Origin: Verrucomicrobia bacterium Opi.OSU.00C
GTDB lineage: Bacteria > Verrucomicrobiota > Verrucomicrobiia > Opitutales > PNEW01
NCBI GenBank assembly: GCA_002922725.1
Contig: PNEW01000011.1
Location: 1-34,081, forward strand
Direction of reading: 5' to 3'
Length of the DNA stretch: 34,081 nucleotides
Of this stretch, positions 3,191-28,503 are shown piece after piece. The first letter of the stretch is position 1, and every line of letters starts with the position of its first letter. The notes under the pieces were generated by a model. The model was not told where the DNA came from. It was given only the letters and a program-made list of their open reading frames with translations, and made no database searches. Position numbers and translations under genes: made by a program.

Positions 3191-3313
3191 TTTGGCATAA
3201 TCACACAAAGCTTATATTCATAAGAAATTAATATACATATACTTATGATAATATAGTGTATGAAGGAATCATAATTATATTTTGAATCAAGATAAAATTA
3301 CGTTTTAACTGAA

Positions 3314-4693: not shown

Positions 4694-4752
4694 TTTAATA
4701 TGAGTATATCCATGCTTGCTTGCAAGGGATCAATGCCTAAAGTAGATTTATT

Positions 4753-7132: not shown

Positions 7133-7592
7133 GTGTAAAATTTAATGAAGCCATTCAGGTAGCTTTATTGTTAAAGAACATTAAACCTTACTTATCCTAA
7201 AGTTTTGTGCCGTAAGCCGGCCCCAAAGCAGGCTTTTTTGAAGATAAAATAATTAATGGATTGTAGTAATATCCCACCCCAATTTTAGTATGTATATTAA
7301 TCTTATTGAGGGAAATTAATATTCTTTCTCATTTGTCTTAAAACAAGCCAATTAAATTGGTCTAAAAGGAAGCTTATTAAGCTCCCGCTTAGGTTTACAT
7401 ATAATATTGATTTTAATTGATCCATTTGGACTAAGAATATCTTATCCTTTATTACTTTGTTCATTATGACTACCGGATAACAGATAGGTATGCCTAGGCA
7501 AGTTTTATTTCCATAAGGGGAAACAGATATAAGTTGATTAGGAAAAGGATGCCATTGACTTGATTAAGTGGTTTATGATTATTACTTAAATA
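7133..7592. other. 460-nt intergenic region without a supported gene
   Basis: Divergent spacer between the EEP gene and thyA, so it should hold both promoters. A TTGACT hexamer at 7555-7560 could be a -35 element for thyA, but the matching -10 is poor. A 5-bp stem with a T-run at 7214-7238 and a 53-codon minus-strand frame (7303-7464) were noted but not accepted. Otherwise featureless AT-rich sequence. Confidence 0.5.
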
Positions 7593-8394: not shown

Positions 8395-8858
8395 AACCTT
8401 ATAAAGCGATCGCAGCGATGTCGCTTAATAGAGTAATTGGCTGCAACAATAAAATTCCGTGGCATATTCCTGAGGATTTTAAATGGGTTAAGACAATTAC
8501 GTTAGGCCATATAATCGTAATGGGGCGAAAAACATTTGAATCCATCGGTCATCCACTTCCACACCGCGAAAATATTGTAATTAGTCAACAGAACTTAAAA
8601 ATACCGGGTACAAAGATTATTCACAGCCTAATGGAATTACAACACATGAAATCAGAAAAAGAAATCTGGATATTAGGTGGTGCGGAAATCTACCGACAAG
8701 TGCTACCGTACTGTTCCGATCTTTATCTCTCAGTGATTAAGCGAGAGGTTGAAGGGGACACATTTTTCCCCACATATGAAGATAATTTTGATCTTAAAGA
8801 AATCCTGCGGGAGGAACCAGATTTTCGTATTGAGCATTATGTAAATTCGTCACCTTAA
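8391..8858 (+). CDS. folA: dihydrofolate reductase
   Basis: 155 residues, standard chromosomal DHFR size. It reduces the dihydrofolate produced by ThyA back to tetrahydrofolate with NADPH. Motifs: [18 protein letters not shown] (15-32, with the catalytic acid at Asp29), GRKTFESIG (45-53) for [13 protein letters not shown] (96-103) and GDTFFP (122-127). It directly follows thyA with a 4-nt overlap, the classic thyA-folA operon. Intact, with no sign of transfer. Confidence 0.96.
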
Positions 8859-8949
8859 ATATAAAATTTTGGTTGAATTGCTAAAACGTTAAGGCTTTTA
8901 CATTTAGTTCATCATAAAAGTTGCAAAAGATTAAATCAAAGAGCTGACT

Positions 8950-11862
8950 TTACTTACTACCACGAACAACTTCTACCCAGTGCTTGGGTGTGAAATCAAA
9001 AGCGTCAAGAATTTGGTGGCGACAGCTGAAACCGCATGCAACAACGGTAGCGCCATCATCGCGATTATGTATAGCCGGGTATAACCTTTCTCCACCTATT
9101 TTCTGCGAGAGATCATAATGTTTCTTTTCGTAGCCGAAGGCTCCCGCCATTCCACAACAACCAGAATTGATTTCGTTCACCTTTATTCCATCGATGTATC
9201 CGAGAACGTCTTTCATAGCGGAAGTGCTAAAGATCGCTTTTTGATGACAGTGTCCGTGAATCAGGATATCTTTACTGTTAGATACGAACTTTGGAGAAAT
9301 ATTTCCTTTTTTAATTTCACGCGAAATAAAAATGTCAATCATTGTAACATGCTCTTTTATTCGCTTTCCGAGTTCTTCATCATCAATAAGGTCAGTAAGG
9401 TCATCAATCATTGCCGTTGCACAACTCGGCTCACATACAACAATATCTAGGTCATCTTTTATAAATTCATCTAACTTCCGCAAGGTTTTGAGTCCATCAT
9501 CTTTAGCGAGCTTAAGTAGACCATGAGAAATTCTTGGTCGCTGACAACAACCAGCCTGGGCAAGAATTACTTCATAGCCACAAGATTCAAGCAGTTCAGT
9601 AGCAGCACGCCCTATATGGGGTTCATGGTAGTTGATATAGGTGTCATCAAAAAGAACGACACGTTTTATTTTATTTTCCTTTCCATTACTTTTTTTATTC
9701 GTTTGAAACCATTTTGGGAAAGGTTCTCTCGCATATGCTGGTAGTTTACGCCGAGCGTCAATACCTGTTAACCATTCGAAAGCTTTTCGAAAAATGTAAG
9801 TTCTCTGTATATAGTTAACGAATGGGGCCAGTAATCCAGAATTAAATTTCGCTGCCTTTGATGAAGCGGCAATTAATTTGTCGATTATTTTCAATCCATG
9901 TTTATCATAATATCCCTGTAAAAATTCGCTCTTTAGTTTGGCCATATCTACATTACTTGGACATTCAGATTTGCAGGCTTTACACGAGAGGCACAGATCG
10001 AGAACATCATGAAGACGCTCACTCGTCATCCCATCAGGGCCTAACTGTCCGCTCATCGCAAGACGCAAAGCGTTAGCTCGTCCTCGGGTAGTATGTTCCT
10101 CATCGAGTGTCGCCATATAGCTGGGACACATGGTACCAACATTTTTCTTTCGGCAGGCACCCACACCGTTACACATATGTACGGCTTCAAAGAAATTGCC
10201 ATCGTCACGAAATTTAAAATTTTCCTTATGTCTGTTGAGTTTATAATTTGTACCAAACCTAAGATTATGATCTATGGGCAAAGCATCAACGATATTACCA
10301 GGGTTCATAAGTCCTTGAGGATCAAATAGGTACTTAATCTCTTTAAATTGCTGATAAATCTCTACCCCGAAATAGCGTTCCAAGTAGGCACTTCGAACTC
10401 GTCCATCGCCATGCTCGCCACACCAGGATCCACCATAAGATTTAACGAGCGCAAATGTATCATCTGCAATGCCTTTCATACGATCAATATCCGCTTGTTT
10501 TCGTAAATCGAGAATTGGGCGTACATGAATAAGCCCAACACTGGCATGGGCATACATGATAACTGGTGTTTCGTGTTTTTCACATATTTTAAGAACTTTC
10601 TCTATATACTCAGGCAGTACTTCGACCGGTACAGCAGCATCTTCAATAAATGGTAACGGTTTACGCTCTCCCTTCATACCAAGCATACATCCAAGTGAAT
10701 TTTTCCGGACTGTCCAGATACGTTCCTGATCGTCAGCATCAGAAAATATCGGATAGTTATACCCTAGTTCTTTCCCGGTAAGGTCCTTTGCCATCTCTTT
10801 AGCATGTTGTAATAACTCTTCCTTATCGTCGCCAAAAAATTCAACAATAAGAACCGCTGCAGGTGACCCTTCTATAAAGGAACACAGGGGCGCCAAATTA
10901 TGATTATCACGAGCGAGCTTTATTACTCCTCCAGTAAGTATTTCTACAGCTGAAGGTTGGTGCTTGACGATCCAAGGCACTGCTTTGATTGACTCAATTA
11001 AATCAGCGTAGTGAGCTACACATAAAATTTTCTCTTTTGGAACTGGTTGTACTTTAACTTTTGCTTCAAGCAAAGTAATAAGTGTTCCCTCACTACCCGT
11101 AATAAGTTTAGCCAGGTTCCATCGTTTGGATTTATGAAATTCATCGAGATTATAACCCTGCACACGGCGCAATATTTTTGGATACCGCCTTTCTATCTCT
11201 TCACGATTATCCCTAACAATTTTTTGAAATTCAGTGTAAATAAGCGCTTCGCGTGTATCTCCCTTTTTTTTCTCTTCATATTCCTCTGGAGATAGCTCCT
11301 TATATTCCATCACTTCACCATTTGCAAGGAGGACTTTAGCTTCAATTACCTGGTCTACCATTTTACCATAAATTATACTTTTAGTCCCAGAGGAATTGTT
11401 CCCAATCATACCACCGACATTCGCCCGGTTAGCAGTGGCTGGATCAATAGAGAGGTGCAGACCATGATCAGCAAGCATTACATTTAACTCGTCTCGGACT
11501 ATGCCTGGTTGAACGCGTACCCAACATTCATCGACATTAAGCTCAAGTAGCTTATTCATGTATTTTGAGAAGTCCAAAACAAGTGCAGCACCTACTGTCT
11601 GACCCCCGAGGCTTGTCCCTCCTCCCCGTGGTAAAATAGGAATTCTATGTTCAAATGCAATTTTCACCGCTGTTTTAACATCCTCCTCATCCAAAGGTAA
11701 AAATACCGCTACAGGAAACATTTGGTAAATGCTCGCATCAGTTGCATATAGACCTCGTGACATTTCATCAGTATAGAGATCACCTCTGACACTTTTCCTT
11801 AACTCTATCTCAAAAGCTTTTACTTTTGAATCTAATTGCGTTGCCTCAAGGGGTTTTAACAT
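8950..11862 (-). CDS. FAD-linked 2-hydroxyacid dehydrogenase with Fe-S and CCG domains (YdiJ/Dld type)
   Basis: 970 residues. The N-terminal PCMH FAD domain (about 40-275) has LPRGGGTSLGGQTVG (78-91) and NVGGMIGNNSSGTKS. The FAD-oxidase C-terminal domain carries GEHGDGR (482-488). A ferredoxin-like section has cysteines at 564, 570, 579 and CxxCxxCxxxCP at 624-635. Two CCG-type domains follow (GCCQRP at 771, GCCGMAG at 901, with HGHCHQK at 869-875). This architecture oxidises D-2-hydroxyacids (D-lactate, D-2-hydroxyglutarate, or glycolate-like acids) and passes electrons to a quinone or other carrier; the exact substrate is not decidable here. The upstream class V aminotransferase ends 1 nt before this ATG, pointing to 2-hydroxyacid/2-oxoacid to amino acid conversion, for example glycolate-glyoxylate-glycine (inference). 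Confidence 0.92.
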   Translation of the reverse strand: MLKPLEATQLDSKVKAFEIELRKSVRGDLYTDEMSRGLYATDASIYQMFPVAVFLPLDEEDVKTAVKIAFEHRIPILPRGGGTSLGGQTVGAALVLDFSKYMNKLLELNVDECWVRVQPGIVRDELNVMLADHGLHLSIDPATANRANVGGMIGNNSSGTKSIIYGKMVDQVIEAKVLLANGEVMEYKELSPEEYEEKKKGDTREALIYTEFQKIVRDNREEIERRYPKILRRVQGYNLDEFHKSKRWNLAKLITGSEGTLITLLEAKVKVQPVPKEKILCVAHYADLIESIKAVPWIVKHQPSAVEILTGGVIKLARDNHNLAPLCSFIEGSPAAVLIVEFFGDDKEELLQHAKEMAKDLTGKELGYNYPIFSDADDQERIWTVRKNSLGCMLGMKGERKPLPFIEDAAVPVEVLPEYIEKVLKICEKHETPVIMYAHASVGLIHVRPILDLRKQADIDRMKGIADDTFALVKSYGGSWCGEHGDGRVRSAYLERYFGVEIYQQFKEIKYLFDPQGLMNPGNIVDALPIDHNLRFGTNYKLNRHKENFKFRDDGNFFEAVHMCNGVGACRKKNVGTMCPSYMATLDEEHTTRGRANALRLAMSGQLGPDGMTSERLHDVLDLCLSCKACKSECPSNVDMAKLKSEFLQGYYDKHGLKIIDKLIAASSKAAKFNSGLLAPFVNYIQRTYIFRKAFEWLTGIDARRKLPAYAREPFPKWFQTNKKSNGKENKIKRVVLFDDTYINYHEPHIGRAATELLESCGYEVILAQAGCCQRPRISHGLLKLAKDDGLKTLRKLDEFIKDDLDIVVCEPSCATAMIDDLTDLIDDEELGKRIKEHVTMIDIFISREIKKGNISPKFVSNSKDILIHGHCHQKAIFSTSAMKDVLGYIDGIKVNEINSGCCGMAGAFGYEKKHYDLSQKIGGERLYPAIHNRDDGATVVACGFSCRHQILDAFDFTPKHWVEVVRGSK

Positions 11863-11863
11863 T

Positions 11864-12983
11864 TTATTTGATTTTTATTAAGTTTTCCAAAGCAGCTAGT
11901 AACAGATTTACATGGTTTTCAGAACTGCTACAACCCATAAGACCTATACGCCAGACCTTGCCAGCATAATCGCCCAAGCCACCTCCTATTTCAATATTGT
12001 ATTCATTTAGTAAGCGGCGTCGGGAGGCGAGATCTTCTAATCCAGAAGGGATCTTAACTGCATTAAGATGAGGGATCCGATATTCAGGTGCTACAATAAA
12101 CTCGAATCCAAGCTTCTCTAATCCCTCACGCAGGTACCCATGGTTTTTCAAGTGTCTGGCAAAACAGGCGTCTAAGCCCTCTTCAAGAATAATTCTTAAT
12201 GCTTCATACAATGCATAAAAGGATGAAACAGGTGCTGTATGGTGATACATCCGTTCTTCGCCCCAATATTTTTTTAATAAATTTAAATCCAAAAAACCAA
12301 CTATTCACTTTACTTTTGCGCCTTTCAATCACATCTACAGCCTTCGAACTAAATGAAACAGGGGCCAATCCAGGAGGAGCACTTATGCATTTCTGGGAAC
12401 AGCTGTAAATGGCATCGATCCCTCTTTCGTCAACGCGTACGTCGACTCCACCCAACGAGGTTACAGCATCTACTAGAAAAAGTGCACCAGCCTCATGAAC
12501 TATTTGACTGATTTCATCAAGTGGTTGCAAAACTCCAGTCGATGTTTCGGCATGAACAATAGCAACCAGTTTCGCTTTACAGGTTCCAAGTGCCTTGTGA
12601 ACTTGTTCCGGCTCTATGGGAGAACCCCATGGTGCATCAACTCGTATTAAATTCCCACCACAACGTTCGACGATATCGCTCATTCGGTTACCAAAAAATC
12701 CATTCACACAAATAATAACGTCATCACCCGGTTCAATGAGATTAACCAAACCGGCTTCCATTCCCGCACTGGCAGGTGCAGGTAGGGCGAAAGTGAGTTC
12801 ATTTTTAGTACCGAATACCCTCCTAATCATGACCATGAGCTCATCCATAATGCTAAGGTACTCAGGGTCTAAGTGTCCAAGTAGTGGGGCAGCCATAGCC
12901 CGCAAAACTCGGGGATGGACATCACTTGGACCAGGACCCATTAAAATGCGTGGGGTTGGATTAAGTTCCTTATTTTTAATCAT
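11864..12983 (-). CDS. class V aminotransferase (alanine/serine-glyoxylate type), interrupted by a +1 frameshift
   Basis: Residues 1-230 are read from ATG 12983, with MGPGPSDVHPRVL, the VDAVTSLGG block (Asp172, cofactor contact) and SCSQKC (PLP lysine 198) followed by APPGLAPV. The remaining 142 residues, starting LDLNLLKKYWGEERMYHHTA, continue in a shifted frame. The join is in an A6 run at 12291-12296 on the given strand (T6 in the gene); five bases restore a 372-residue protein, normal for AGXT/serine-pyruvate transaminases. These PLP enzymes transfer amino groups among alanine, serine and glyoxylate. The gene is 1 nt upstream of the 2-hydroxyacid dehydrogenase, so an operon is nearly certain. 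The break is probably a sequencing error. Confidence 0.9.
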
Positions 12984-13234
12984 AAAGTTTAATATAATGG
13001 TTATTTAAACAGTGGCTAAATTATTAAATGATTGCAGGATGACAAGCTGGTTTTATTCAATAAACATTATTAAAGCAAATAGAAGAAAGAAATTAAGCCA
13101 AAATGCTATCGAAGGTCGTCCTTTATCCTTTACCCATGAATTTATCGCCGGTATAAGAACCTGTATATTGGGTCCATTTGGTCTTATATATCTCCGCTAT
13201 ATGTTTTATATTTTAAGTCTATTTTATTCGTATT

Positions 13235-14431
13235 ATGGCTACCTTTACATCTTTCAAAGCTAGAAATGGTATTGTCGAACGCTGTATCAGTGACGACCAG
13301 ACCCGCTTGCGGTTAAAATACAACCCTTATTACCTGCCATTTGATAGACAGGTAGGTTCGCATGTTTGGCTTGATGGGAAAGAGTTAATTATGCTCAGTA
13401 GCAATGATTACCTAGGATTGAGTGATCATCCAAAAGTTATTGAAGCAGGCAAGAAAGCGCTAGAGGAATGGGGAAGCGGAACAACTGGATCACGTTTTGC
13501 CAATGGTAGTCGATATTTTCATGAAAAACTTGAGAGTGATTTGGCAAGTTTTCTTGGCAAAGAAGCCTGCCATGTAAGTGTTGCAGGGTATATTTCTTGC
13601 ATGTCTTCTATTGAATCCTTCGCTCGTAAAGGAGATCTAATTATTGTCGATCGGAATGTACACTCCAGCCTCTGGGCGGGAATTGCAAATACAGGAGCCC
13701 GCCTAGAAAGGTTCGGGCATAATAATATAGAAAGCCTGAAGGAAGTCCTAGGGCAAGAATCTCCTGAGATTACAAAAATGTTGGTTGTCGAAGGAGTTTT
13801 TTCGATGGAAGGTCACATTGCTAATCTCCCCGACTATTTAACCGTCATTCAAAACCAAAATTGTTTTATTGTCGTAGATGATGCCCACGGTTTCGGAGTC
13901 TTAGGAAAACAGGGTAGGGGCACTGTAGATTATTTTGGCGTAACTGATCAAGTGGATATCATTGCTGGAAGTATGTCTAAATCCATGGCAAGTACGGGCG
14001 GGTTTGTTGCGGGCTCAACCGAAATCATTGAATATCTGAGAACTCATTCTAAACAAACCGTATTCAGTGCGGCTTTAAGTCCCTGCCAAACTGCTTGTGC
14101 TCAAGCTGCTTTAGATGTAATAAAGGAAGAACCGGAACATTTACAGCACCTTTGGGATAATACACGTTATTACCATAAACTTCTTTTAGACTTGGGTCTC
14201 GACATCTGGGAATCTAAAACTCCAGCTACTCCTATCGTCCTCGGAAAAATAGAAAGTGCTTATTATTTTTGGAAAAAACTAATGAAAAAAGGGGTGTTTA
14301 CAAACATAATTCCCCCACCGGCTGTTTCACCAAATAAGATCCTAATTAGAACCGCGATTTCAGCGCGACATTCAAAAGAAGATTTGGAAAAAATTGGCGA
14401 GGCCATGAAATTCGCTGCAAAAGGTCTTTGA
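13235..14431 (+). CDS. alpha-oxoamine synthase, serine palmitoyltransferase-like
   Basis: 398 residues, PLP fold-type I. Seen: LSSNDYLGLS (54-63), GSGTTGSRFANGS (80-92), NVHSS with His143, VVDDAHGFGVLG (213-224) and the PLP lysine 249 in GSMSKSMASTGGFVAG. That lysine motif (SKSxASxGGF) is closer to serine palmitoyltransferases than to KBL (GKALGG) or BioF (GKALGSSGG); this rests on remembered family motifs. SPT condenses serine with an acyl thioester to 3-ketosphinganine, the first step of sphingolipid synthesis. BioF or KBL remain alternatives, but no biotin or threonine gene is near, while a ketosynthase, ACP, SDR and AMP ligase are. It overlaps the following GT9 gene by 4 nt. Confidence 0.8.
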   Translation: MATFTSFKARNGIVERCISDDQTRLRLKYNPYYLPFDRQVGSHVWLDGKELIMLSSNDYLGLSDHPKVIEAGKKALEEWGSGTTGSRFANGSRYFHEKLESDLASFLGKEACHVSVAGYISCMSSIESFARKGDLIIVDRNVHSSLWAGIANTGARLERFGHNNIESLKEVLGQESPEITKMLVVEGVFSMEGHIANLPDYLTVIQNQNCFIVVDDAHGFGVLGKQGRGTVDYFGVTDQVDIIAGSMSKSMASTGGFVAGSTEIIEYLRTHSKQTVFSAALSPCQTACAQAALDVIKEEPEHLQHLWDNTRYYHKLLLDLGLDIWESKTPATPIVLGKIESAYYFWKKLMKKGVFTNIIPPPAVSPNKILIRTAISARHSKEDLEKIGEAMKFAAKGL

Positions 14432-15510
14432 ATTCGAAAATCTCTCAACAAGTAGTCCGGGCTTTCAAGCGCCTGTTGTTATCTCGACCAGATCGTATTG
14501 GTGATGTGGTAATCACGACTTCGTGCCTTAAAGTAATCCATGATGTTTATCCTCACCTTAAGCTTTACTTCCTAGTTAATGAGTCACTAATTCCACTGTT
14601 CAACGATCATCCTTTGCTTGCCGGATTAATTCCCCTGCCTGATCATGACAAAGATCCCAATCATTCAATAATATTATTAAAAGATGAAATACAGAATTTA
14701 AATCCTGATTGTATTGTTCATTTTAATTATGATCCAGTAGTAGCTACTGCTGCCTATAAAGCTAATATACCCTACCGATTGGGGCACTGGACGAAAAAAC
14801 GTAATACCTGGCTAACACATGCTATTACCGATAGAAGAAAGGAAGGTCTTCAACATGAAGCCGAATATAATTTAGATTTACTCAACCCTCTTCACATTTA
14901 TCCACCTCTCAATCTGAAACCTTGGTTATCCCCAAAACCAGTACATGATACACGCTTATTTGAACTTTTACCCTGGTGGAGACCCAATTGTCCTTTTGCT
15001 GTATTTCATATAAGTGCACATGCATCCAAAGCTCGTATCCCACCTAGCATTTTCGCGGGGATTACTCCCTGGCTTGTTGATGAGTTAAATTATCATATTG
15101 TTCTAATTGGATCAGAAAAAAATGATCCAGGAAAGAAATCATTTTTACAATTGATAGGTGATCGCTTGAGTAAAAAGGTTAGTGATTTAACTAATATCAT
15201 TCATTTAGGAGAGACTGCTCGTATTTTAAAAGAAGCACGTTTCCTTTTTTCGCGAGACAGTGGGCCAGCACATCTTGCCAGTGCAGTAAATTGCCCAGCG
15301 TTAACACTAATTGGACCACTTGGGAAAAGATCAGCCTCAACTCGGTGGAGTCCGCTAGGACCATCAGCGAAGATATTGGAGAAGCCAATTCACCCGCGAC
15401 TGTGGGAAACTACCCACGCTTATCATCAGCGCTATTTCAATTCATTTTCCATAAAAGAAATTAAAAATGAATTAATGATAATTATAAACAAGGCTGTTAA
15501 CAATAACTGA
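14428..15510 (+). CDS. glycosyltransferase family 9 (heptosyltransferase-like)
   Basis: 360 residues starting at TTG, whose last two bases form the TGA of the upstream gene, so translation is coupled. The N-terminal LLLSRPDRIGDVVITTSCLK fits the GT9 acceptor-side signature, and FSRDSGPAHLASAVNCPALTLIG is the GT9 nucleotide-sugar binding block. GT9 enzymes add heptose or other sugars to the LPS core on the cytoplasmic side of the inner membrane; acceptor and donor are unknown here. Coupling with an SPT-like enzyme allows the idea that the acceptor is a sphingolipid-type lipid, but this is inference only. Confidence 0.9.
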   Translation: MNSKISQQVVRAFKRLLLSRPDRIGDVVITTSCLKVIHDVYPHLKLYFLVNESLIPLFNDHPLLAGLIPLPDHDKDPNHSIILLKDEIQNLNPDCIVHFNYDPVVATAAYKANIPYRLGHWTKKRNTWLTHAITDRRKEGLQHEAEYNLDLLNPLHIYPPLNLKPWLSPKPVHDTRLFELLPWWRPNCPFAVFHISAHASKARIPPSIFAGITPWLVDELNYHIVLIGSEKNDPGKKSFLQLIGDRLSKKVSDLTNIIHLGETARILKEARFLFSRDSGPAHLASAVNCPALTLIGPLGKRSASTRWSPLGPSAKILEKPIHPRLWETTHAYHQRYFNSFSIKEIKNELMIIINKAVNNN

Positions 15511-15531
15511 ATTTATGACAGTAATTTCCTT

Positions 15532-16740
15532 TTAAGGGTTACTAGCGATTTTAAATTTTTGATAGAGACGGGTAGTATTTTTGTGTGCATCTGCATTTTC
15601 TTCTACCCAATGACGTCCATTCATTCGGATTTTATTGTATAGCTCATCATTATTCATGAGAACTGTAATCGCATTTATCCAAGCTTGACTTTCCGATTGC
15701 TCGACAATCAATCCATTTTCTTTTGAAGTAATAACTTCGGATATTCCAGGATGGGCGGCAGCAATAACCGGCAAACCCGAAGCCATAGCTTCCAGTATCA
15801 CATTAGGTGTCCCATCACGATTACCATCAACAGCAATTCTTGTCGTGTAGAGGAAAATATCCGCCCAGCGATACTGTTCAAAAACCGCCTCATTATCAAC
15901 ATAACCCATGAGTTCCACGTAATGGTTAATATCAAGTTCCTTAATTCTCTCGCTCATTATATTTTCCATTGGACCGGACCCCACTATTTTAGCTTTGAAA
16001 GAAAACTCTTGTTTCAACAACTCAGCATAGATATCAATTTGTCGTAATTGATCTTTTTTCTCAACCAGCCTTCCGACACTTAAAATTCTGAGGGGATGAC
16101 TGACAATGCGCTTTGTTTTTAACTTCGGATAAAAGTTCAGCCCGCGCCTGATGATTACGATATTATTTTTATTTGCACCCTTTTCAATTAAATGACGGGC
16201 GGCAGCCTCAGTAGTTGTGTGGATAAAGACGGACTCTATGAGTTTTTCAGGTAACAACCAATCGCCACCATTAGCATATATATCAAAAGCATGAGCCCCC
16301 ATAGAAAATGGTGTACCAGTCAGTTTAGATAAAAGTAAGGCGGCGGTCGCAGGCATTGTAGCCCAAGGTGCATGGAAAAGCGCAGGTCTTTTCCGATTAA
16401 ATCTTCTCGCATAAAGGATAGCAAAACATATCCCAATAAAAACTTCGCCTGCATTACGAATTGATGGCATCCTCCTTTGCTTTAAACCTGAAAAAATATC
16501 GTAGAAAGCTTTGGGGTTCTTCACTATCCAATAAGGGAAAAGTACCCCCAGAAAGATAAGCTTCCATTTGGCGAATCGAAATACCTTTATCCCATTATAT
16601 AATTTATCTCCACCCCATAGCGAAAATATTTCAAGTTGCACAGGAAGTTTATATATTGCCTGGATCTCCCTTTGCAAAAATGTTTCTGTTGCAACAGGAA
16701 AAGTAGTAAATAAGTAAGTGATTTTAAGGGGCTTTGTCAT
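15532..16740 (-). CDS. glycosyltransferase family 4 (WcaL/colanic acid type)
   Basis: 402 residues with the GT-B layout. The N-terminal half has TFPVATETFLQREI, typical of colanic-acid/exopolysaccharide glycosyltransferases, and FHAPWATMPATAALLLSKLTG. The C-terminal half has LRILSVGRLVEKK and the donor-binding DGTPNVILEAMASGLPVIA with the EX7E-like acidic pair. It probably transfers a hexose from a nucleotide sugar to an envelope glycan or lipid acceptor. Convergent with the GT9 gene (21 nt apart) and downstream of the ketosynthase gene on the same strand (59-nt gap), so possibly in that operon. Confidence 0.9.
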   Translation of the reverse strand: MTKPLKITYLFTTFPVATETFLQREIQAIYKLPVQLEIFSLWGGDKLYNGIKVFRFAKWKLIFLGVLFPYWIVKNPKAFYDIFSGLKQRRMPSIRNAGEVFIGICFAILYARRFNRKRPALFHAPWATMPATAALLLSKLTGTPFSMGAHAFDIYANGGDWLLPEKLIESVFIHTTTEAAARHLIEKGANKNNIVIIRRGLNFYPKLKTKRIVSHPLRILSVGRLVEKKDQLRQIDIYAELLKQEFSFKAKIVGSGPMENIMSERIKELDINHYVELMGYVDNEAVFEQYRWADIFLYTTRIAVDGNRDGTPNVILEAMASGLPVIAAAHPGISEVITSKENGLIVEQSESQAWINAITVLMNNDELYNKIRMNGRHWVEENADAHKNTTRLYQKFKIASNP

Positions 16741-16799
16741 AAGCCATCACAGGGCTCTTTACTTACATCCAAATTTATATTTGTCCCGTGTCCAGTAAA

Positions 16800-18065
16800 T
16801 CAATGCTCGGGATCACTAAAAATTAAAGAGACATTCGAACCACCAAATCCACTACTGTTACTCATCGCATGCTTTGGGGTCTTATCTAGTGTTTTCTTAA
16901 TAATATTTAATCCTTTTGCTTCTGGATCGAGTGTCTCAATATGGGCCGAACCTGGCATAAAGTTTTCTTTTATTGCGAGGACAGAAAAAGATGCTTCCAT
17001 TATACTTGCAAGTGATAAAGCATGTCCGGTCAATGCTTTAGTACTACTTATTGCAGGCTTAGAGTTATTTTTGTTAAAGACTTTTTTTAAAGCACGCATT
17101 TCCGATAAATCACCAGCAAGAGTAGAGGGAGCGTGGGCGTTAATATAATCGATGCTTTTAGGCCCAAGTTTCACTGATCCTAAAGCTCTCTCCATAGATT
17201 GAATCAACCCATTCCCTTCAGGATGAGAAAGAGCAACATGATAGCCATCAGAAGCTTGCCCCCATCCTGTGAATTCAGCATATATCTCTGCATTTCGTTT
17301 TCGTGCGATCGATTCCTCCTCCAAAATCATCACTACTGCACCTCCAGTCCCTACGAATCCATTCCTATTTTTATCAAAAGGTCGTGAAGCCCGATCCGGA
17401 TCAGATGATAAAGTTAAAACTCTCATTCCGGCAAATGGCATAATACTTAGAAAATTGCCATCTTCTCCACCAACAACAAACATGCGATCGTGGCGCCCAA
17501 GAGAAATCTCATCATAAGCGTAACCAAGCGCATGCCCTGAGGATGAGCATGCCGAAGCAAAACCACTAGACGCACCTTTTATTTTAAATGCGGCAACGAG
17601 ATTAAAATTCAACGTTCCAACAATAGATGAAATAATTCCCTGAGGTGATGCCCTCAAAACGCCAACTTTAAACATACGGTTAAGATGGTTATAAGTCATA
17701 AAAACAGAACCAGATGAAGCAGTAAATAATCCTGTTTTTGGATTTGAAATCTCATCTTCTGATAACCCGGCATCTTGAATCGCCTGAACCATGGCACAAT
17801 AAGCATATAAGCCATGGGGAGATAAGCCACGTAAGGTGTCCAGCCTTAATTTATACTGAATAGGATACGTCCAGTCCTCAGAATCCATGGATTCAGTATT
17901 AAATCCCTTAATTGGTGCTGCTAATTTTACAGGGATGTCATCTTTTTTGAAAGGCGGAAAAATTTCTATACCATGTTTCATATGGCATAAACTATCAATG
18001 ACGGTGGCTTTATCATTACCTATACTTGTAACAAAGCCCAAACCGGTGACTACTACCTTACGCAT
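16800..18065 (-). CDS. beta-ketoacyl-ACP synthase, FabF (KAS II) family
   Basis: 421 residues of the thiolase fold. The nucleophile Cys173 lies in SGFASACSSSGHALG, the catalytic His311 in NAHAPSTLAGD, Lys343 and His348 in STKALTGHALSLAS, and GFGGSN is at 406-411. The triad is intact, so it should be an active condensing enzyme using malonyl-ACP. NAHAPSTLAGD departs from the usual NAHGTSTPxGD, suggesting a specialised ketosynthase rather than the housekeeping FabF. It is 75 nt downstream of the ACP-dehydratase fusion on the same strand, its likely carrier partner. Compatible products are modified fatty acids or polyenes; nothing here fixes which. Confidence 0.9.
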   Translation of the reverse strand: MRKVVVTGLGFVTSIGNDKATVIDSLCHMKHGIEIFPPFKKDDIPVKLAAPIKGFNTESMDSEDWTYPIQYKLRLDTLRGLSPHGLYAYCAMVQAIQDAGLSEDEISNPKTGLFTASSGSVFMTYNHLNRMFKVGVLRASPQGIISSIVGTLNFNLVAAFKIKGASSGFASACSSSGHALGYAYDEISLGRHDRMFVVGGEDGNFLSIMPFAGMRVLTLSSDPDRASRPFDKNRNGFVGTGGAVVMILEEESIARKRNAEIYAEFTGWGQASDGYHVALSHPEGNGLIQSMERALGSVKLGPKSIDYINAHAPSTLAGDLSEMRALKKVFNKNNSKPAISSTKALTGHALSLASIMEASFSVLAIKENFMPGSAHIETLDPEAKGLNIIKKTLDKTPKHAMSNSSGFGGSNVSLIFSDPEH

Positions 18066-18140
18066 CTTTCCTGAGTCGAAGAATTTCCCTATAAAAGGAC
18101 TTCCCGTTAAGAGTGATTTTTTACTTAAAAGTCTAAACCC

Positions 18141-18980
18141 TCAACTTTCATAGTCGAAGGTCAAGGTTATATCTTCAGCGAATACCGCTTTTTCATCACC
18201 CACCGTAATGGTACCCTCAAAGGTTACTAAAGGATAACGTATCCTTTTCAATTTAACTTTAAGTTTAAGAACGTCTCCAGGGCGGCATACCCGATGGCAA
18301 CGAACACCATCGCATGAAGCAAACATGACTTTGCTGGTATCAATCGGTTGTTCGAATTCCGGTTTTTCATTCCGGATGAGATAAAGAACTGCCAATTGCC
18401 CCAGAGCTTCAATGAGAATAGAAGCAGGGAAAACGGGGTTGTTTTTAAAATGACCATCGATAAAAAATTCATCTCCAGTGATAGAATAAAGGGATTCGGC
18501 TTCATTAAGACTAATTTTAGATTCTCTAATAAAGAGAAATGGATCCTGGTGCGGCATTACAGAAGCAATTTCTTCAACCGTAAGTTGTTTGTTCTGCTTG
18601 GGGATTGGGATTCCTTTAACTTTATAATCAAGGTAAATTTTGATGTCCCCCACACTTCTAATATCTCTTAATTCATCATTGGCGATAGATATATCAAGTG
18701 TCTCTTCTACAAGAATAATAATCTCGACCATAAGAAGTGAATCTACACCAAGATCTTCGAATAATCGGGTATCATCATTTCCTTCTCTAAGTAAGTGACG
18801 TACATCAGGCTCGAGAAATCTCTCAATAATTCCCATCACAATTACCGGAATGCCATCAAAATTTCCGTGTTGCCTAAAGCTAAGAGCGGCTTCTACGGTT
18901 TCCGGTGAACAACGCTTTAAGGATTCCCTCAATTCATCTTCAAGATGCGGGGTAAAGGCAAGACTCTTCTTCAACTCCAT
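18141..18980 (-). CDS. acyl carrier protein fused to a FabZ/FabA-like hotdog dehydratase
   Basis: 279 residues in two parts. The N-terminal ACP (about 40-120) has LFEDLGVDSLLMVEI with Ser81 as the phosphopantetheine site. After a short linker (125-132), the hotdog domain begins at MPHQDPFLFI (142-151). It keeps the FabZ-type catalytic His177 in DGHFKNNPVFPASILIEALGQ, with Glu191. It should carry an acyl chain and dehydrate 3-hydroxyacyl groups in cis, although the PG of the usual GHFPxxPVMPG is replaced, so activity is probable but unproven. The N-terminal block (SPETVEAALSFRQHGN, then VIVMGIIERFLEPD) resembles verrucomicrobial phosphopantetheine-binding proteins (memory). It is upstream of the ketosynthase in the same direction. 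Confidence 0.88.
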   Translation of the reverse strand: MELKKSLAFTPHLEDELRESLKRCSPETVEAALSFRQHGNFDGIPVIVMGIIERFLEPDVRHLLREGNDDTRLFEDLGVDSLLMVEIIILVEETLDISIANDELRDIRSVGDIKIYLDYKVKGIPIPKQNKQLTVEEIASVMPHQDPFLFIRESKISLNEAESLYSITGDEFFIDGHFKNNPVFPASILIEALGQLAVLYLIRNEKPEFEQPIDTSKVMFASCDGVRCHRVCRPGDVLKLKVKLKRIRYPLVTFEGTITVGDEKAVFAEDITLTFDYES

Positions 18981-19288
18981 ATTTTCAGTTATTTTTAGAA
19001 GATGAAATTACAAAAGCAAGCAATTTTACTGTGTACGTCTTTCCTAAGAATATAATTGTAAAACATTTACCGATAATTGCTACTATTACCTTCGGCTTTT
19101 TGCCCTACTCATAAAATCTACAACTCATTGAATATACGTCAATCTCTACTTGGCAAGGAGATATTTTAGATAATACAAGAAAGATCACAATATACGTGTA
19201 ATACCTACCTCCTTTATGCCTAAACCTTAATTGATCTCTGTTTTTAAACAATTAGTTCATCCTGAGGTGAAATCAGGAGATTCTTTAT
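18981..19288. other. 308-nt intergenic region between the ACP fusion and oleD-like genes
   Basis: All flanking genes read leftward, so this spacer holds the 3' end of the oleCD-like unit and the probable promoter of the ACP-ketosynthase unit. A 6-bp inverted repeat (TCCTGA 19260-19265, TCAGGA 19273-19278) lies just past the oleD-like stop but has no T-run, so it is at best a weak terminator. I see no reading frame that looks like oleA or oleB remains. Confidence 0.45.
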
Positions 19289-20287
19289 TTATAAACCAGT
19301 TTTATTCAGATGCTCAACTAATTGATTAAGCCCCTTTTTAGTGTTAATCACTGGTCTATATCCTAAATCACGGCGTGCAGCTTCGATATTAAAAAAATGA
19401 TTTTTTGAGAGCTCCACTGCTAGAAACCGTGTCATTGGAGGATCTGAACTGCGGCCTGATATTTTATAAAATCCTTCAAATCCCAGGCCTAAGACATATG
19501 CTTTGTTTAAGCTAATTCTTTTTTCCACGGGCTTAATATTTATACGGGTGAGCAATTCATTTATCCATTTCCACAAAACTACAGGTTGATCTTGAGAAAT
19601 AAAATAAGGTTTACCACCTTCGGAATTTCCATTTTCTAAAGCATCGAAAGCTAAAAGGTGAGCATGTGCTGCATTATCAACATGCGTGATGTCAACACGA
19701 TTGTAACCATCACCAATAATGCGTAATTTTCCTGCCCGTGCCCGGGAAATAACAGTTGGGATTAAATGAGGGTCACCAATTCCCCATATTAGATGTGGTC
19801 GTAAAGCTATTGTGCGCAATCCTTTATAATTATTAACAGCGAGAACTTCGGCCTCTGCAATTGCTTTAGTATGGGCGTAGTGAGATAGCCAATTACTACC
19901 ATAAGGCAGTGATTCATCCGCCCCTTCAATAGAATTGCCATTAAATACTACGCTTGGGGTGCTGGTGTAAATTAGTCTTGAGATTCCCTGATCTTTACAG
20001 GCATTGATCACATTCCTAGTTCCAATAACGTTAGGTTGAAAAAAGCTGTTCCAACTCCCCCAAATACCAGCTTTAGCCGCAATGTGAAATACTACATCGC
20101 ACCCCTGACAAGCCTCTTTAACAATTTTATAGTTCTCAATTTCACCTTGATAAACCTTAACTCCCTGGGCTTCAATTCCAGGTTGTGGCGATCGACCTAA
20201 GATAGCAATCTCAGCTCCACGACTACACAACCTTTCGACCACATATCTTCCTAGAAAACCTCCTCCACCTGTTACCAATACCTTCAT
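19289..20287 (-). CDS. oleD: OleD-like 3-beta-HSD/SDR family dehydrogenase
   Basis: 332 residues, extended SDR. TGGGGFLG (6-13) binds NADP(H), a TSTPSVVF serine region is at 108-115, and Tyr137 and Lys141 lie in HYAHTKA. Family blocks shared with OleD include VFHIAAKAGIWG, ALRPHLIWGIGDPHL, NRVDITHVDNAAHAHLLA and PYFISQDQPV. OleD reduces the 2-alkyl-3-ketoacid made by OleA to the 2-alkyl-3-hydroxyacid in long-chain olefin/beta-lactone synthesis. It is 11 nt downstream of the OleC-like gene, the usual pairing. Related SDRs also serve as ceramide reductases or sterol dehydrogenases, so the assignment relies partly on the neighbour. Confidence 0.8.
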   Translation of the reverse strand: MKVLVTGGGGFLGRYVVERLCSRGAEIAILGRSPQPGIEAQGVKVYQGEIENYKIVKEACQGCDVVFHIAAKAGIWGSWNSFFQPNVIGTRNVINACKDQGISRLIYTSTPSVVFNGNSIEGADESLPYGSNWLSHYAHTKAIAEAEVLAVNNYKGLRTIALRPHLIWGIGDPHLIPTVISRARAGKLRIIGDGYNRVDITHVDNAAHAHLLAFDALENGNSEGGKPYFISQDQPVVLWKWINELLTRINIKPVEKRISLNKAYVLGLGFEGFYKISGRSSDPPMTRFLAVELSKNHFFNIEAARRDLGYRPVINTKKGLNQLVEHLNKTGL

Positions 20288-20298
20288 TCTCGAGAAAG

Positions 20299-21963
20299 TT
20301 ATTTATAGGAAAAGGATAAATTATATTTTCGTGCCAAGGTAAGGCGATGGATTTTCGCATTATGCCTTATATCTACCGGTAATTTTTTTTGAATGAAAAA
20401 CTGGTTAATATCCTTTGTCATCTGACAACCCTGACCCAGTTTTTTAAGTTCGGTTATTAATCGTTGTCGTTCTAAACTATTCTTAGGAAAGTATCCTTTT
20501 TCAGGCTCAACGACAATAGCAGGTATTAATTCGTGATATTGACCCAGACCAATCAATGCAGTCCTAAATACTCCAGAATGCTGATTATAGATAGCCTCAC
20601 AACAGTTAGTATAAAGTTCACCTGTAGCCGTATGTACGCGTTCAACCTTGCGGCCACAAAACCAGAGACGACCTACGTTATCAATATACCCTAAATCTCC
20701 AGTTCGATGCCAAATCGCATTCCCATCATTTATCTTTGCCAATTTTGTTTGTTCTTTCAGCGCATCATATTTCTTCGTTGTGACCGCACCCTTGACTATG
20801 ATTTCTCCTATCGAGCCTTGGGGTAGTTCAAGCCTATCACACCATTCTTCAATCGCTTTTTCATAAATTTTTATAATACGAATTATAAGCCCTGGAACGG
20901 GTCTTCCTACACAAGTACCCTTTCCTTGAAGCGTAAGGTGCGCAGTCTCTTTATTTATCTCGGCACTACTTATAGATGTGATAGGCAAACATTCTGTAGC
21001 CCCATAGGGTGTGTAAACAAAACCCTTGGTAAGTAATTTACTTAATTTCTCAATAAGCTGTAATGGGACTGGAGCACCAGCAATAAGAACCCGCTTCATC
21101 GTCGATAGGTTGATATTATTCGCATTACAATACTGAGCGACCTTTGCCCATATTGCAGGAGAACCAAAACTATTCGTAACCCCACATTGTTTAATCGCCT
21201 CTACCACCTTTCGAGGATCTATTGTGGCTGGTCGACTGGGATTCATTTCTGGAACAACCGTTGTCATTCCTAATGCAGGATTAAAAAGTGAGAAAATGGG
21301 TAGCATAGGGAAATCGATCTCGCCTCGTTTAATATCATAGTGCTCACGAATAAGATTTACTTGAGCCTCAAATACCCCGTGCTCATAAGAAACTCCTTTG
21401 GGGGGACCCGTAGAGCCTGAAGTAAAAAGAATCGCCGCAGGGTCATCACTACTCGTTGGGACAATGTTGAAGCTATTGTCTTTGCTCCTTCTTGAAAGAA
21501 AATTGTCAACAGCTGACACAAACTTATACCCCTCGACGTTTATTCTCACTCGAAGTTTACGGAAATAAGGAAAGAAAATACGGCTAAACCAATGAGCTTT
21601 GGAGGCCCCAATCAGAGCTTCCGGTTGAGAATTAATAACACATTTTAGAAAATTTTTTACCCCCATACCTGGATCAATAAAAATGGGGACCGCACCAATT
21701 TTAAAAAGAGCAAAACTTATAAATAAGAAATTTAATCCTGGCTTCAGTAATATTAGTACACGAGTGCTACGACCTATATTACATTCGCATATATAACGCG
21801 AAACTGCATCACAATATTTATCCAATTCAAGAAATGTGAGTTCATTATAAATAATGTTTCCATTTGGTTCGCGATGAAGGGGATCCATAATCGCACAAAG
21901 ATGGGGGTCCTGTTTTGCCATCACGGAGATATAACGCGCTACATTGAATAATTCTTCCTTCAT
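20299..21963 (-). CDS. oleC: OleC-like AMP-dependent synthetase (beta-lactone synthetase)
   Basis: 554 residues of the ANL superfamily. The ATP loop TSGSTGPPKG is at 181-190, the YTPYGATECLP motif at 317-327, and WHRTGDLGYID with LWFCGRKVERV further on; PVDIRHNAKIHR is near the C-terminus. The block FSLFNPALGMTTVVPEMNPS is typical of OleC rather than of acyl-CoA ligases, as is PVDIRHNAKI (family memory). OleC converts 2-alkyl-3-hydroxyacids to beta-lactones with ATP; OleB then decarboxylates them to cis-olefins. It is upstream of the OleD-like gene with an 11-nt gap and 146 nt after purK. An acyl-ACP synthetase of a ceramide pathway is an alternative reading. Confidence 0.82.
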   Translation of the reverse strand: MKEELFNVARYISVMAKQDPHLCAIMDPLHREPNGNIIYNELTFLELDKYCDAVSRYICECNIGRSTRVLILLKPGLNFLFISFALFKIGAVPIFIDPGMGVKNFLKCVINSQPEALIGASKAHWFSRIFFPYFRKLRVRINVEGYKFVSAVDNFLSRRSKDNSFNIVPTSSDDPAAILFTSGSTGPPKGVSYEHGVFEAQVNLIREHYDIKRGEIDFPMLPIFSLFNPALGMTTVVPEMNPSRPATIDPRKVVEAIKQCGVTNSFGSPAIWAKVAQYCNANNINLSTMKRVLIAGAPVPLQLIEKLSKLLTKGFVYTPYGATECLPITSISSAEINKETAHLTLQGKGTCVGRPVPGLIIRIIKIYEKAIEEWCDRLELPQGSIGEIIVKGAVTTKKYDALKEQTKLAKINDGNAIWHRTGDLGYIDNVGRLWFCGRKVERVHTATGELYTNCCEAIYNQHSGVFRTALIGLGQYHELIPAIVVEPEKGYFPKNSLERQRLITELKKLGQGCQMTKDINQFFIQKKLPVDIRHNAKIHRLTLARKYNLSFSYK

Positions 21964-22109: not shown

Positions 22110-23261
22110 TTAACAGGAGTTAGAATTTGAAGCTCCACACAATGCTTTGAATATCCCTTCTGCTTTTCGCAAGGCCGTATTAATAGATTCATCAACAACG
22201 CAAAAATGACCCATTTTACGCCCTAATCGGGGTGTTCCTTTATCATAAAGATGTAATTTTACGGTGGGATCACTCAAAACAATATCCCATTCGGGGTTAT
22301 CTGGATCCCATAAATCACCAAGCAAGTTAATCATTACGATAGGTGAAAGTAGTGTAGTAGCTCCTAATGGCAGCCCACAAACTGCTCTTACATGCTGCTC
22401 GAACTGATTGGTTAAGCAAGCGTCAAAACTATAATGTCCAGAATTGTGAGGACGAGGTGCAAGTTCATTTACCAACCATTCATTATTCTGAGTTAAAAAG
22501 AATTCAACTGCTAATAGTCCTACTAAATCGAGCTTTTTAGCTATTTGAATTGCAATATCTTCTGCTTCACGTTGCTTGTCTAGATCAATACGAGCAGGTA
22601 CTATCGATGAATGCAAAATATGATTTCGATGAATATTTTCAGCCATAGGAAAGGTACTTTCCTCACCCTTTTCATTCATAGCACAGATAACAGAATATTC
22701 ACCGTGAAAAGAAATCCATTTTTCGACGACCCCAACATCACTGTTAAATTCTTGCCATATTACTTCGAAGTCTTCGTCAATAAAATCTATCTTTCTCTGC
22801 CCTTTGCCATCGTAACCAAACGAAGCTGTTTTAAGAATACAAGGTAACCCTAATTGTATTACTGCAGCAGCAAGTTCCTGAGGAGACTTAACTACTTTAA
22901 AAGGAACACATGGGAATCCAGAGTGGGCTAAAAAATCTTTTTCTCGCTGACGATGCTGACAAATGTACAAAACCTGTCCCGAGGGATACAAGGGGACTTG
23001 TTCAGCAATGGCTTCTACTGCCGATACTGGAATATTTTCAAACTCAAGAGTAACGACATCAACCTGTGAAGAAAAATACCGCAGACTAGTCAAATCACTG
23101 TAGGGTGCATTAACCTCAAGATCTGCGACCATACCGGCAGAACACCCTTCATTAGGTTCAAAAATATTAAATCTATACCCCATCCGTCGGCCAGCGAGAA
23201 CGGTCATGCGACCGAGTTGCCCTCCCCCAAGGATCCCGATCGTGCTGTCGGGAGAAATCAT
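22110..23261 (-). CDS. purK: 5-(carboxyamino)imidazole ribonucleotide synthase PurK
   Basis: 383 residues, ATP-grasp enzyme of purine synthesis converting AIR, bicarbonate and ATP to N5-CAIR. Motifs: [12 protein letters not shown] (8-19), [23 protein letters not shown] (the ATP-grasp lysine and glycine loop), VEKWI, and the metal-binding [14 protein letters not shown]. It starts inside the purE stop (4-nt ATGA overlap), so it is coupled to PurE, the next enzyme in the pathway. Confidence 0.97.
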
Positions 23262-23770
23262 GAACTAGGTAATTTTGTCTTAAGCACTTTAGCAGTCTGC
23301 ACTTTCCGTAATGTTTTTAGCCGATTACTAAGACTCTTGTTATCAAGAGAAAGAATAGATGCTGCACTAAGTGCTGCATTTATGGCACCTGCTTTACCAA
23401 TCGCGAAAGTAGGGACAGGAATACCGGCTGGCATTTGTACTATAGATAAAAGAGAATCTAATCCACTAAGAGCCTTTGACTGAACTGGAACTCCTAGAAC
23501 TGGTAGCTCAGTCAATGAAGCCGTCATTCCAGGTAAATGCGCAGCTCCACCTGCTCCAGCAATAATTACCTTAATTCCACGTTCCGACGCTTCGTCTGCA
23601 TATTTATACAATAATTCCGGGGTACGATGGGCACTGACAATTTTTTTCTCATAAGGCACTTTCAGTGTATCAAGATTTGCAGCTGCATGGCGCATCGTAT
23701 CCCAATCAGATGCACTCCCCATAATAAGCCCCACCAATGGTTTTAAATTTCTTTTAATTTTTTTTACCAT
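23258..23770 (-). CDS. purE: N5-CAIR mutase PurE
   Basis: 170 residues, class I PurE. It rearranges N5-CAIR to [13 protein letters not shown] (18-26), SAHRTPE (46-52) and the [13 protein letters not shown] loop form the active site. A 14-residue basic N-terminus and a 25-residue basic C-terminal tail go slightly beyond the core fold. It is the first gene of purEK and diverges from trkA across a 354-nt region that should contain both promoters. Confidence 0.97.
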
Positions 23771-24124: not shown

Positions 24125-25475
24125 ATGAAAATAGTAATTGTCGGAGCCGGAGAGGTTGGCAGCTACTTATGTGGGATGTTAAGTGGACATGCACATGAAG
24201 TTACGCTCATCGAATCTGCGGAGAAAACAGTAAGTCGTGCGGATGAGCAATATGATGTTCGTGTTGTGGAGGGAAATGGCAGTTCGGCAGAAATACTTAA
24301 AAAAGCCGAAGTTGATGGTTGTGATTTCTTTCTCGCGATGACAAGTGACGATAAAACGAACCTAATCTCGAGCTCATTAGCCAAAGTATTGGGAGCTGGT
24401 ACGACTATAGCTCGTGTTCACGATCAAACTTATAGCGATAACTCATACCTTAATTACCAACTCCATTTTGGTATAGATATGCTTCTTAATCCCGAAGCCC
24501 TTTGTGCTGTCGAGTTAGCTAAAACGATTCGTAATCCTGGAAGAGTTGCAGTGGAAAATTTTGCAAGAGGTCAGATTGAAGTACAACAAGTGCAACTTGC
24601 TAAAAAATCCAAGCTTAAAGGTAAAACTTTAGCGGAATTAAAAATAAATCCCAAAATACGAATCGGTGCAATCCAGCGGGCTGACAAAATAGAGCTACCA
24701 ACAAGTGATTCAATTTTAGAAGTAGGTGATTGGGTAACACTATTTGGTCCACCCGACGTAATGATGGAATCACGCATTAATTTCAATCCTGATATTACCG
24801 AAAATATAGTTCGGGTTGTTCTTTTTGGGGGAGGGGAAACTTCAATTGCTCTTGTTAGATTACTTACTAACCCTAGATTTAAAATTCGTATAATTGATAG
24901 TGACCGTGAGAAATGTGACTATATAGCAAAAAAAATTCCCTCACGTCACAGTCATCAACGGAGATGCCACACGGTTGCGTTTGTTAGAAGAAGAACAGAT
25001 TGGCAGTACCGATTATTTTATCGCTTGTACTAAAGATGATGAAAATAATATAATGACCGGATTACAGTCATCAAAACTAGGAGCTGCCCATGTTCAAATT
25101 GTAATCAACAAGACCGATTATGAAGAAATCCTCGACCGCATGAAAAGTACTTTAGGTATTGAATTATCTGTCTCTCCGCGCATTGCAACAGTTAACGAAA
25201 TTATGCGCTACCTCTCACCAGAACCTTACACCGAACTTGCTGAACTACCAAATAAAGCTGGGAAAATACTAGAAATTAGGGTTAGTGGTAATAGTTCCCA
25301 GACAGGACGATTGATTAAAGATATCCCATTACCATTAAGCACGGTTTTTGTTGCCCTTCTGCATAAATTTGAAGCGGTGGTTCCTGGTGCTGAAGATATC
25401 ATTCTTGAAGGAGATCGGATAGTTGTTATAACTAAAGAAGATAGCATAAAAGAATTACTTAATTTGTTCACTTAA
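24125..25475 (+). CDS. trkA: Trk potassium uptake regulator TrkA, interrupted by a +1 frameshift
   Basis: Peripheral NAD-binding subunit of the Trk K+ system. The first RCK module has IVGAGEVGSYL (5-15), and NGSSAEIL is followed by MTSDDKTNL. A second Rossmann start, VVLFGGGETSIALVRLL, follows the first TrkA_C domain. The frame breaks at an A8 run (24928-24935). With seven A the text continues KKFPHVTVINGDATRLRLL into LEEEQIGSTDYFIACTKDDENN, giving a normal 449-residue TrkA with a second TrkA_C domain at the end. The break is probably a sequencing error. trkH follows 100 nt downstream on the same strand. Confidence 0.93.
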
Positions 25476-27624: not shown

Positions 27625-28503
27625 ATGTTATATGATCGCCCTTATATGCGTTATGATGCTTCTCGTCACCTTCCTGTTCTGAAATGGATCCTCATCATTA
27701 ATATTGGTGTATTTGTATTGCAAAATGTGTTCCGTTGGTGGTTTAACAGCGATTTTCCGGAGCGTTGTTTTGGGCTGAACAGCCTGGATTTATTACGCGG
27801 ATTTGTTTGGACACCTTTTACTTACAGTCTGCTACACGATACTGTCGGATCATTCCCTTGGCATCTTATTTTTAACATGCTGGCTATCTTTATTTTCGGA
27901 AGGATAGTTGAACAAGATATTGGTCCTCATAAACTTCTAGATCTCTATATTCTTTCGGTTTTTACCGGTGGATTGTTGTGGGTGATTTTCAATTTCCAAA
28001 GCCAGTATCCCCTCATCGGTGCCTCAGCAGCAGCGATGGGATTATTGACCGTTTATTGTATTATGCATGCAGATGAACGAGTTACTTTTTTACTCTTTTT
28101 TATTATTCCTGTAATGATTAAACCAAGATATTTAGGTTGGGGTATTTTTGGTATAGAGCTATTTGGATTTCTATTTAGTGAAATGATTCCAGGGAGCACG
28201 AATCGAATTGCACATTCGTCCCACATTGGTGGTATGCTAGGAGGACTTTTCTATTTTCGTTATCTCATCAATCGTGAATCGATAATAAAACGAAGTAAGA
28301 CATCTATTGAATTACCCTCTTGGTTAAAGAAAAAATCTTTGCGTAGCATCAAGACAAAGTATAAAATAAATATTGGTACCCATAGAGATATACAAAATGA
28401 AGTTGATAAAATACTGGATAAAATAAACAGTCAGGGTTTTGGTGCTCTAAGTGAAGAAGAAAAAAAGATTTTAGATCGCGCTAAAGACATCCTCAAACGA
28501 TAA
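27625..28503 (+). CDS. rhomboid family intramembrane serine protease
   Basis: 292 residues with six or so membrane helices in the first 215, then a soluble charged tail of about 75 residues. The family HxxxN is His80-Asn84 (WHLIFNML), the catalytic serine is Ser134 in GASAAAMG, and the catalytic histidine is His200 in AHSSHIGGMLGG. The common GxSG here reads GASA, a variant that I believe also occurs in active family members. The C-terminal tail ends in an amphipathic segment (GALSEEEKKILDRAKDIL), also seen in bacterial rhomboids with cytoplasmic tails. Substrates are unknown. It probably has its own promoter. Confidence 0.92.
   Translation: MLYDRPYMRYDASRHLPVLKWILIINIGVFVLQNVFRWWFNSDFPERCFGLNSLDLLRGFVWTPFTYSLLHDTVGSFPWHLIFNMLAIFIFGRIVEQDIGPHKLLDLYILSVFTGGLLWVIFNFQSQYPLIGASAAAMGLLTVYCIMHADERVTFLLFFIIPVMIKPRYLGWGIFGIELFGFLFSEMIPGSTNRIAHSSHIGGMLGGLFYFRYLINRESIIKRSKTSIELPSWLKKKSLRSIKTKYKINIGTHRDIQNEVDKILDKINSQGFGALSEEEKKILDRAKDILKR

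Follow-up and report, generated by a model that had tools for sequence, protein, structure and literature searches.

An OleC-OleD gene pair of an Opitutales genome is very probably one half of a split OleABCD hydrocarbon pathway

In the Ole pathway, OleA condenses two acyl-thioesters, OleD reduces the condensation product, OleC closes a beta-lactone and OleB decarboxylates this beta-lactone to a cis-olefin (PMC7158056, PMC7064751). The window, which is the whole stretch of 34,081 nucleotides analysed here and which lies on contig C11, was read from its sequence alone as carrying an OleC-OleD-like pair at 19289-21963 with neither OleA nor OleB. This raises the question of where the rest of the pathway is encoded, and whether the product of the pair is an olefin or a beta-lactone. 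Both open reading frames of the pair are present on the minus strand, and their profile matches support the families proposed for them:

20299..21963, minus strand: oleC, AMP-forming beta-lactone synthetase of the OleC family, 554 aa (profile matches and tree)
19289..20287, minus strand: oleD, extended SDR, 2-alkyl-3-oxoalkanoate reductase of the OleD family, 332 aa (profile matches and tree)

In the family profile scan, OleC matches NF006754/PRK09274 with 639 bits, above the cut-off of 478, and the OleC equivalog models NF045786 and NF045785 with 516 and 491 bits over the whole protein (NF045786 spans residues 7-545 of 554, with an E value of 8e-155). The OleC models are its top-scoring family, and the top clearly non-ole family reaches only 169 bits. 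OleD matches NF042423 and NF042422 with 385 and 375 bits, with HpnA as the runner-up family at 141 bits, and contains the YxxxK motif of SDRs as YAHTK. These equivalog scores are below the curated cut-offs (900 and 850 bits for OleC and 580 bits for OleD); the models, judging by their names, are based on Xanthomonas and Shewanella proteins. The gap between family members and outsiders is wide, the weakest OleC scoring 450 bits against 101 bits for the best outsider, and the weakest OleD 244 against 58 bits. In the trees, both of which have long outgroup branches, OleC groups within the clade formed by OleCs of complete, contiguous oleABCD operons (SH-aLRT 100 versus other AMP-ligases) and OleD groups likewise with the OleDs of such operons (SH-aLRT 99 versus other SDRs), so that neither protein falls outside the Ole clades. 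The nearest named relatives of OleC are from Opitutales, a group in which the cultured Pelagicoccus mobilis (L128) also carries oleC, and OleD is 63% identical to an OleD of family f5. A search of the PDB detects no solved OleC structure. Judged from these profiles and trees, the pair is phylogenetically genuine OleC and OleD. A sphingolipid reading of the pair, in which SPT, ACP, SDR and acyl-CoA ligase are grouped as in bacterial ceramide loci, was rejected because both proteins are in Ole clades.

The source genome is a metagenome-assembled genome of Opitutales (Verrucomicrobiota), which is 83% complete and consists of 287 contigs. A genome search gives no OleA- or OleB-type match on contig C11, and the absence of both genes from the window is thus correct. 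In contrast, an oleA-oleB pair is found elsewhere in the same genome, on contig C102 (locus L008). This contig of 4.5 kb carries, in this order, a CrtI-like gene cut by the contig end, FabZ, a FabI-like SDR, OleA and OleB. OleA matches PRK09258 with 416 bits, above the cut-off of 285, and the structure of Xanthomonas campestris OleA (3row) with an E value of 4e-58. Its residues E97, C123, H271 and N301 align with the catalytic set of the X. campestris enzyme and are invariant in 17 OleAs. OleB (L008:314-1189) has N43, D109, W110 and H271 as the haloalkane-dehalogenase-like catalytic residues, which are likewise invariant in 17 sequences. The GC content of contig C102 (34%) is slightly lower than that of the window (39%). 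The best relatives of both halves, oleCD and oleAB, are members of the same family, f5, and it is therefore unlikely that contig C102 is a contamination of the bin. The possibility that OleA and OleB are truly missing was rejected, since both are on contig C102. Contig C62 of this genome contains another ketosynthase (KS) gene together with genes for an ACP and for a second CrtI-like protein (CrtI'). The ole pieces are never on one contig in this fragmented genome.

The split between oleAB and oleCD is biological and not an assembly effect, because oleCD is located more than 2 Mb from the oleAB run in the single-contig genomes G031 and G034. In G031, a run of KS-ACP-CrtI'-CrtI-FabZ-FabI-OleA-OleB is located at 2.11 Mb, and oleCD is found at position 4.33 Mb. 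G034 has this run as well, with its oleA at 2.0 Mb and its oleC at 4.26 Mb. A one-cluster definition of oleABCD fails for these two genomes, as it does for the separate contigs of the source genome. Among 20 Opitutales loci with oleA, FabI accompanies it in 15, FabZ in 14 and CrtI in 11. Outside the order, the locus L152 of Planctomycetota contains FabZ-FabI-OleA-OleB-OleC-OleD together, three other loci of this phylum (L169, L172 and L183) contain OleC-OleD-KS-CrtI'-CrtI-FabZ-FabI, and L174 of a further phylum, Muiribacteriota, contains OleA-B-C-D-KS-CrtI'. Across 87 Opitutales genomes, 66 have both OleC and OleA, 7 have OleC without OleA, 4 have OleA without OleC (G025, G042, G062 and G078) and 10 have neither (p=3.4e-6, uncorrected for shared ancestry). 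The proposal that OleA and OleB are elsewhere is therefore borne out by contig C102, by the same split in single-contig genomes and by this co-occurrence across the order. Strict co-occurrence with an intact oleAB elsewhere, which the sequence-only reading also considered, is found in part: oleAB is present and the association is strong, but no OleA match is detected in 7 of the 73 OleC-bearing genomes.

The genome G064, which is 99% complete and consists of 6 contigs, contains oleCD (locus L047) with a CrtI-like gene approximately 4 kb away and an ole-linked KS (C4:308351-314862; C1:59348-60595), and a profile search of this genome detects neither OleA nor OleB. It is a true case of oleCD without oleAB, and such sets do occur. 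G017, like G064, has oleCD with CrtI and KS and is without oleAB.

The genes around oleCD in the window are as follows:

22110..23770, minus strand: purK-purE, directly upstream of oleC with a gap of 146 bp
19260..19278, no strand assigned: 6-bp hairpin directly past the oleD stop codon, within the 308-bp gap to the ACP-FabZ gene
18141..18980, minus strand: ACP-FabZ fusion, 279 aa (family profile match), present in genomes without ole and lacking in many that have it
16800..18065, minus strand: FabF/FabB-type ketosynthase, 421 aa, paired with the ACP-FabZ fusion and distinct from the ole-linked KS
15532..16740, minus strand: GT4 glycosyltransferase, located after the ACP-FabZ/KS pair in many Opitutales
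13235..14431, plus strand: serine palmitoyltransferase (SPT)-like alpha-oxoamine synthase, repeatedly found near the ACP-FabZ/KS/GT module

The FabF-type ketosynthase and the ACP-hotdog fusion that had been reported downstream on the same strand are thus present. The hairpin in the gap suggests that oleCD is a unit apart from the KS module, although it is a weak terminator-like site, and such sites are not above chance frequency in the scan. The ACP-FabZ/KS pair is a conserved unit of its own, and the genes after it often encode an SDR ketoreductase, an MGDG-synthase-like GT28, GT4s and an SPT-like enzyme. Throughout Opitutales, the region corresponding to 13235-18980 of the window recurs as a module of ACP-FabZ, KS, sometimes KR, MGDG-synthase-like GT28, GT4, SPT-like enzyme and GT9, and in several genomes with such a module ACP and FabZ are encoded by two genes instead of a fusion. 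A reasonable guess is that this module directs a pathway for a glycosylated sphingoid-type lipid; the sphingolipid reading may hold for these KS, SPT and GT genes. On the other side of oleCD, the contiguous order purE-purK-oleC-oleD of the window is also seen in another Opitutales family (L057:8046-12299). Elsewhere in the window, a trkA-like gene at 24125-25475 extends over two overlapping open reading frames in different frames (24125-25033 and 24975-25475), representing a frameshift or an assembly error; a class V aminotransferase gene at 11864-12983 is maybe split into overlapping open reading frames (12204-12983 and 11864-12292), possibly by a frameshift; and the product of 27625-28503, with a weak rhombosortase-like match (29 bits versus a cut-off of 84), is possibly a rhomboid-type membrane protease.

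It was proposed from the sequence that the neighbouring ACP-based ketosynthase supplies the beta-ketoacid to OleC and OleD in place of OleA. The genes are on the same strand as oleCD and adjacent to it, with a gap of merely 308 bp, and both proteins look intact by sequence, the ACP having a DSL motif and the KS a Cys-His-His set. FabF-type enzymes catalyse decarboxylative extension and not the OleA reaction. When the gene order at 16.8-22 kb is compared with that of other genomes, the ACP-FabZ gene or its KS is beside oleC in none of the 100 other OleC loci. Nor does the presence of the window-type ACP-FabZ depend on ole: among the 87 Opitutales genomes, 43 have both, 34 of the 77 ole genomes lack ACP-FabZ, 6 ole-less genomes have it (G004, G007, G015, G035, G050 and G066) and 4 have neither (p=1.0; p=0.38 for OleC alone). 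The recurrent companions of the pair are the KR, glycosyltransferase and SPT-like genes described above, and an intact OleA is present in the genome, which argues against its replacement by the window KS. The proposal is not upheld by these results, and a role of the window KS as a substitute for OleA is extremely improbable. A beta-lactone end product, proposed on the ground that OleB is missing, is equally improbable for this genome. Actinobacterial oleACD clusters without oleB do make beta-lactones (PMC7064751), and OleB is not found in G017 or G064, but here an OleB with conserved catalytic residues adjoins OleA on contig C102, which speaks against this product. On present evidence, the ACP-FabZ/KS pair belongs to an independent module outside the ole pathway and happens to adjoin oleCD in the window.

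An ACP-dependent ketosynthase module tied to ole does exist, close in spirit to what had been supposed, but its KS is that of contig C62, to which the window KS is only about 29% identical, and OleA is retained. Among the 87 genomes, 72 have ole and CrtI, 5 have ole without CrtI, none has CrtI without ole and 10 have neither (p=7.5e-10); the corresponding numbers for the C62-type KS are 73, 4, 0 and 10 (p=2.5e-10), both p values being uncorrected for ancestry. The 10 ole-less genomes belong to five families, two of which (f5 and f8) also have members with ole. This co-occurrence and the gene order suggest that OleA most likely receives acyl chains that are built and desaturated by the KS-ACP-CrtI'-CrtI-FabZ-FabI module. 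The module might instead serve an unrelated lipid pathway whose genes happen to be in the oleAB locus, which would affect the acyl-supply part of our interpretation only. CrtI and KS are indeed on contigs other than that of oleAB in several genomes, but CrtI or KS is found in none of the 10 ole-less genomes as compared with 72-73 of the 77 ole genomes, and clusters of the module with ole recur in three phyla. An unrelated pathway is therefore unlikely, though less so than the alternatives considered above. In two deltaproteobacterial loci (L182:812-7867 and L187:565-7551), PfaA-like type I synthases are located directly upstream of oleABCD instead, which suggests that the Pfa-type synthase and the CrtI module are two alternative acyl suppliers. 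A Pfa synthase was rejected as the polyene source in the source genome, because the single large type I synthase detected there, on contig C19, is not PfaA; its domains are KS-AT-DH-MT-ER-KR-ACP-C-A-T. The gene for this large PKS-NRPS hybrid (L260, contig C19 of G000, 3263-15342) has a stop codon between KS and AT and is followed by a sulfotransferase gene, and its domain order is like that of fungal highly reducing PKS-NRPS enzymes.

We conclude that the pair of the window is very probably the OleC-OleD half of a complete but split OleABCD head-to-head hydrocarbon pathway. The reaction order given here is inferred from known Ole biochemistry. The KS-ACP-CrtI'-CrtI-FabZ-FabI module would make acyl chains and add or rearrange their double bonds, and these chains would be passed from ACP to OleA. 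OleA of contig C102 would then condense two acyl-thioesters to a 2-alkyl-3-ketoacid, OleD of the window would reduce this ketoacid, OleC of the window would close the beta-lactone, and OleB of contig C102 would decarboxylate it to a long-chain cis-olefin. Because all four Ole enzymes are present, an olefin, namely a long-chain cis-olefin, is the expected product and a beta-lactone is not. There is close to an even chance that this product is a polyunsaturated hydrocarbon. We propose more tentatively that a type II fatty acid module with two CrtI-like FAD enzymes makes polyunsaturated acyl chains independently of Pfa in both Opitutales and Planctomycetota and delivers them, perhaps as acyl-ACP, to OleA. 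If this is the case, C31:9-like polyenes would account for polyunsaturated hydrocarbons in organisms without PUFA synthases. It is also conceivable that oleCD is a relic or has a moonlighting role, and that KS-CrtI-FabZ-FabI-OleA-OleB make another product, such as a ketone, through OleA and OleB alone. The lack of linkage between oleAB and oleCD in Opitutales and the four genomes with OleA and no OleC match would fit such a product. Against it, the two halves strongly co-occur, the full-length proteins are conserved over the order with approximately 45-63% identity, and contiguous versions exist in Planctomycetota, so that a relic is very improbable. The split OleABCD pathway remains the preferred interpretation.

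The split layout and the linkage of the module with ole appear to be undescribed in the open-access PMC literature, in which no paper tying a CrtI/FASII module to ole was found. Three ole contexts have been listed previously, namely oleABCD clusters, oleBC fusions and oleACD sets that lack oleB, and none is split (PMC7064751). Published surveys located ole genes by demanding adjoining ole genes (PMC7064751, PMC7158056), and split sets would therefore be overlooked or mistaken for beta-lactone clusters. How polyunsaturated hydrocarbons arise without a PUFA synthase has been asked since Desulfotalea psychrophila was studied in 2009 (PMC2649909), and the near-perfect co-occurrence of KS, ACP, CrtI, FabZ and FabI with ole provides a testable candidate answer for bacteria without this synthase.

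As in the OleABCD systems of Xanthomonas campestris, Shewanella oneidensis and Micrococcus luteus, all four enzymes are encoded; OleA and OleB have their catalytic residues, and OleC and OleD are full-length. Unlike in these systems, oleCD is in a locus apart from oleAB, and OleC and OleD score below the curated equivalog cut-offs. The lipstatin-type oleACD beta-lactone clusters (PMC7064751) likewise have an OleC and OleD locus without oleB, but in the present genome oleB is elsewhere and oleA is also outside the locus. The FASII/phytoene-desaturase-like clusters of Kuenenia stuttgartiensis and D. psychrophila (PMC2649909; PMC4790861) have the same combination of FabF-type KS, ACP, FabZ and CrtI-like proteins, a likeness at the level of gene families; KS, ACP, FabZ and a CrtI-like pair are all present in L219 and on contigs C62 and C102 of the source genome. 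The radical SAM genes of those clusters, in contrast, are not among the families found here. Acyl unsaturation by the CrtI module is supported from outside by these two organisms, because D. psychrophila, for which no PUFA synthase is known, makes C31:8 and C31:9 hydrocarbons and has phytoene-dehydrogenase-like genes in its FASII clusters (PMC2649909, in which OleA is unmentioned), and the CrtI-like proteins of Kuenenia do not desaturate phytoene (PMC4790861). The Pfa PUFA synthase that feeds OleABCD (PMC6463001) is similarly a dedicated acyl-chain supplier tied to ole, but here the sole large type I synthase found is the PKS-NRPS hybrid, and the candidate supplier is a type II module with CrtI-like enzymes.
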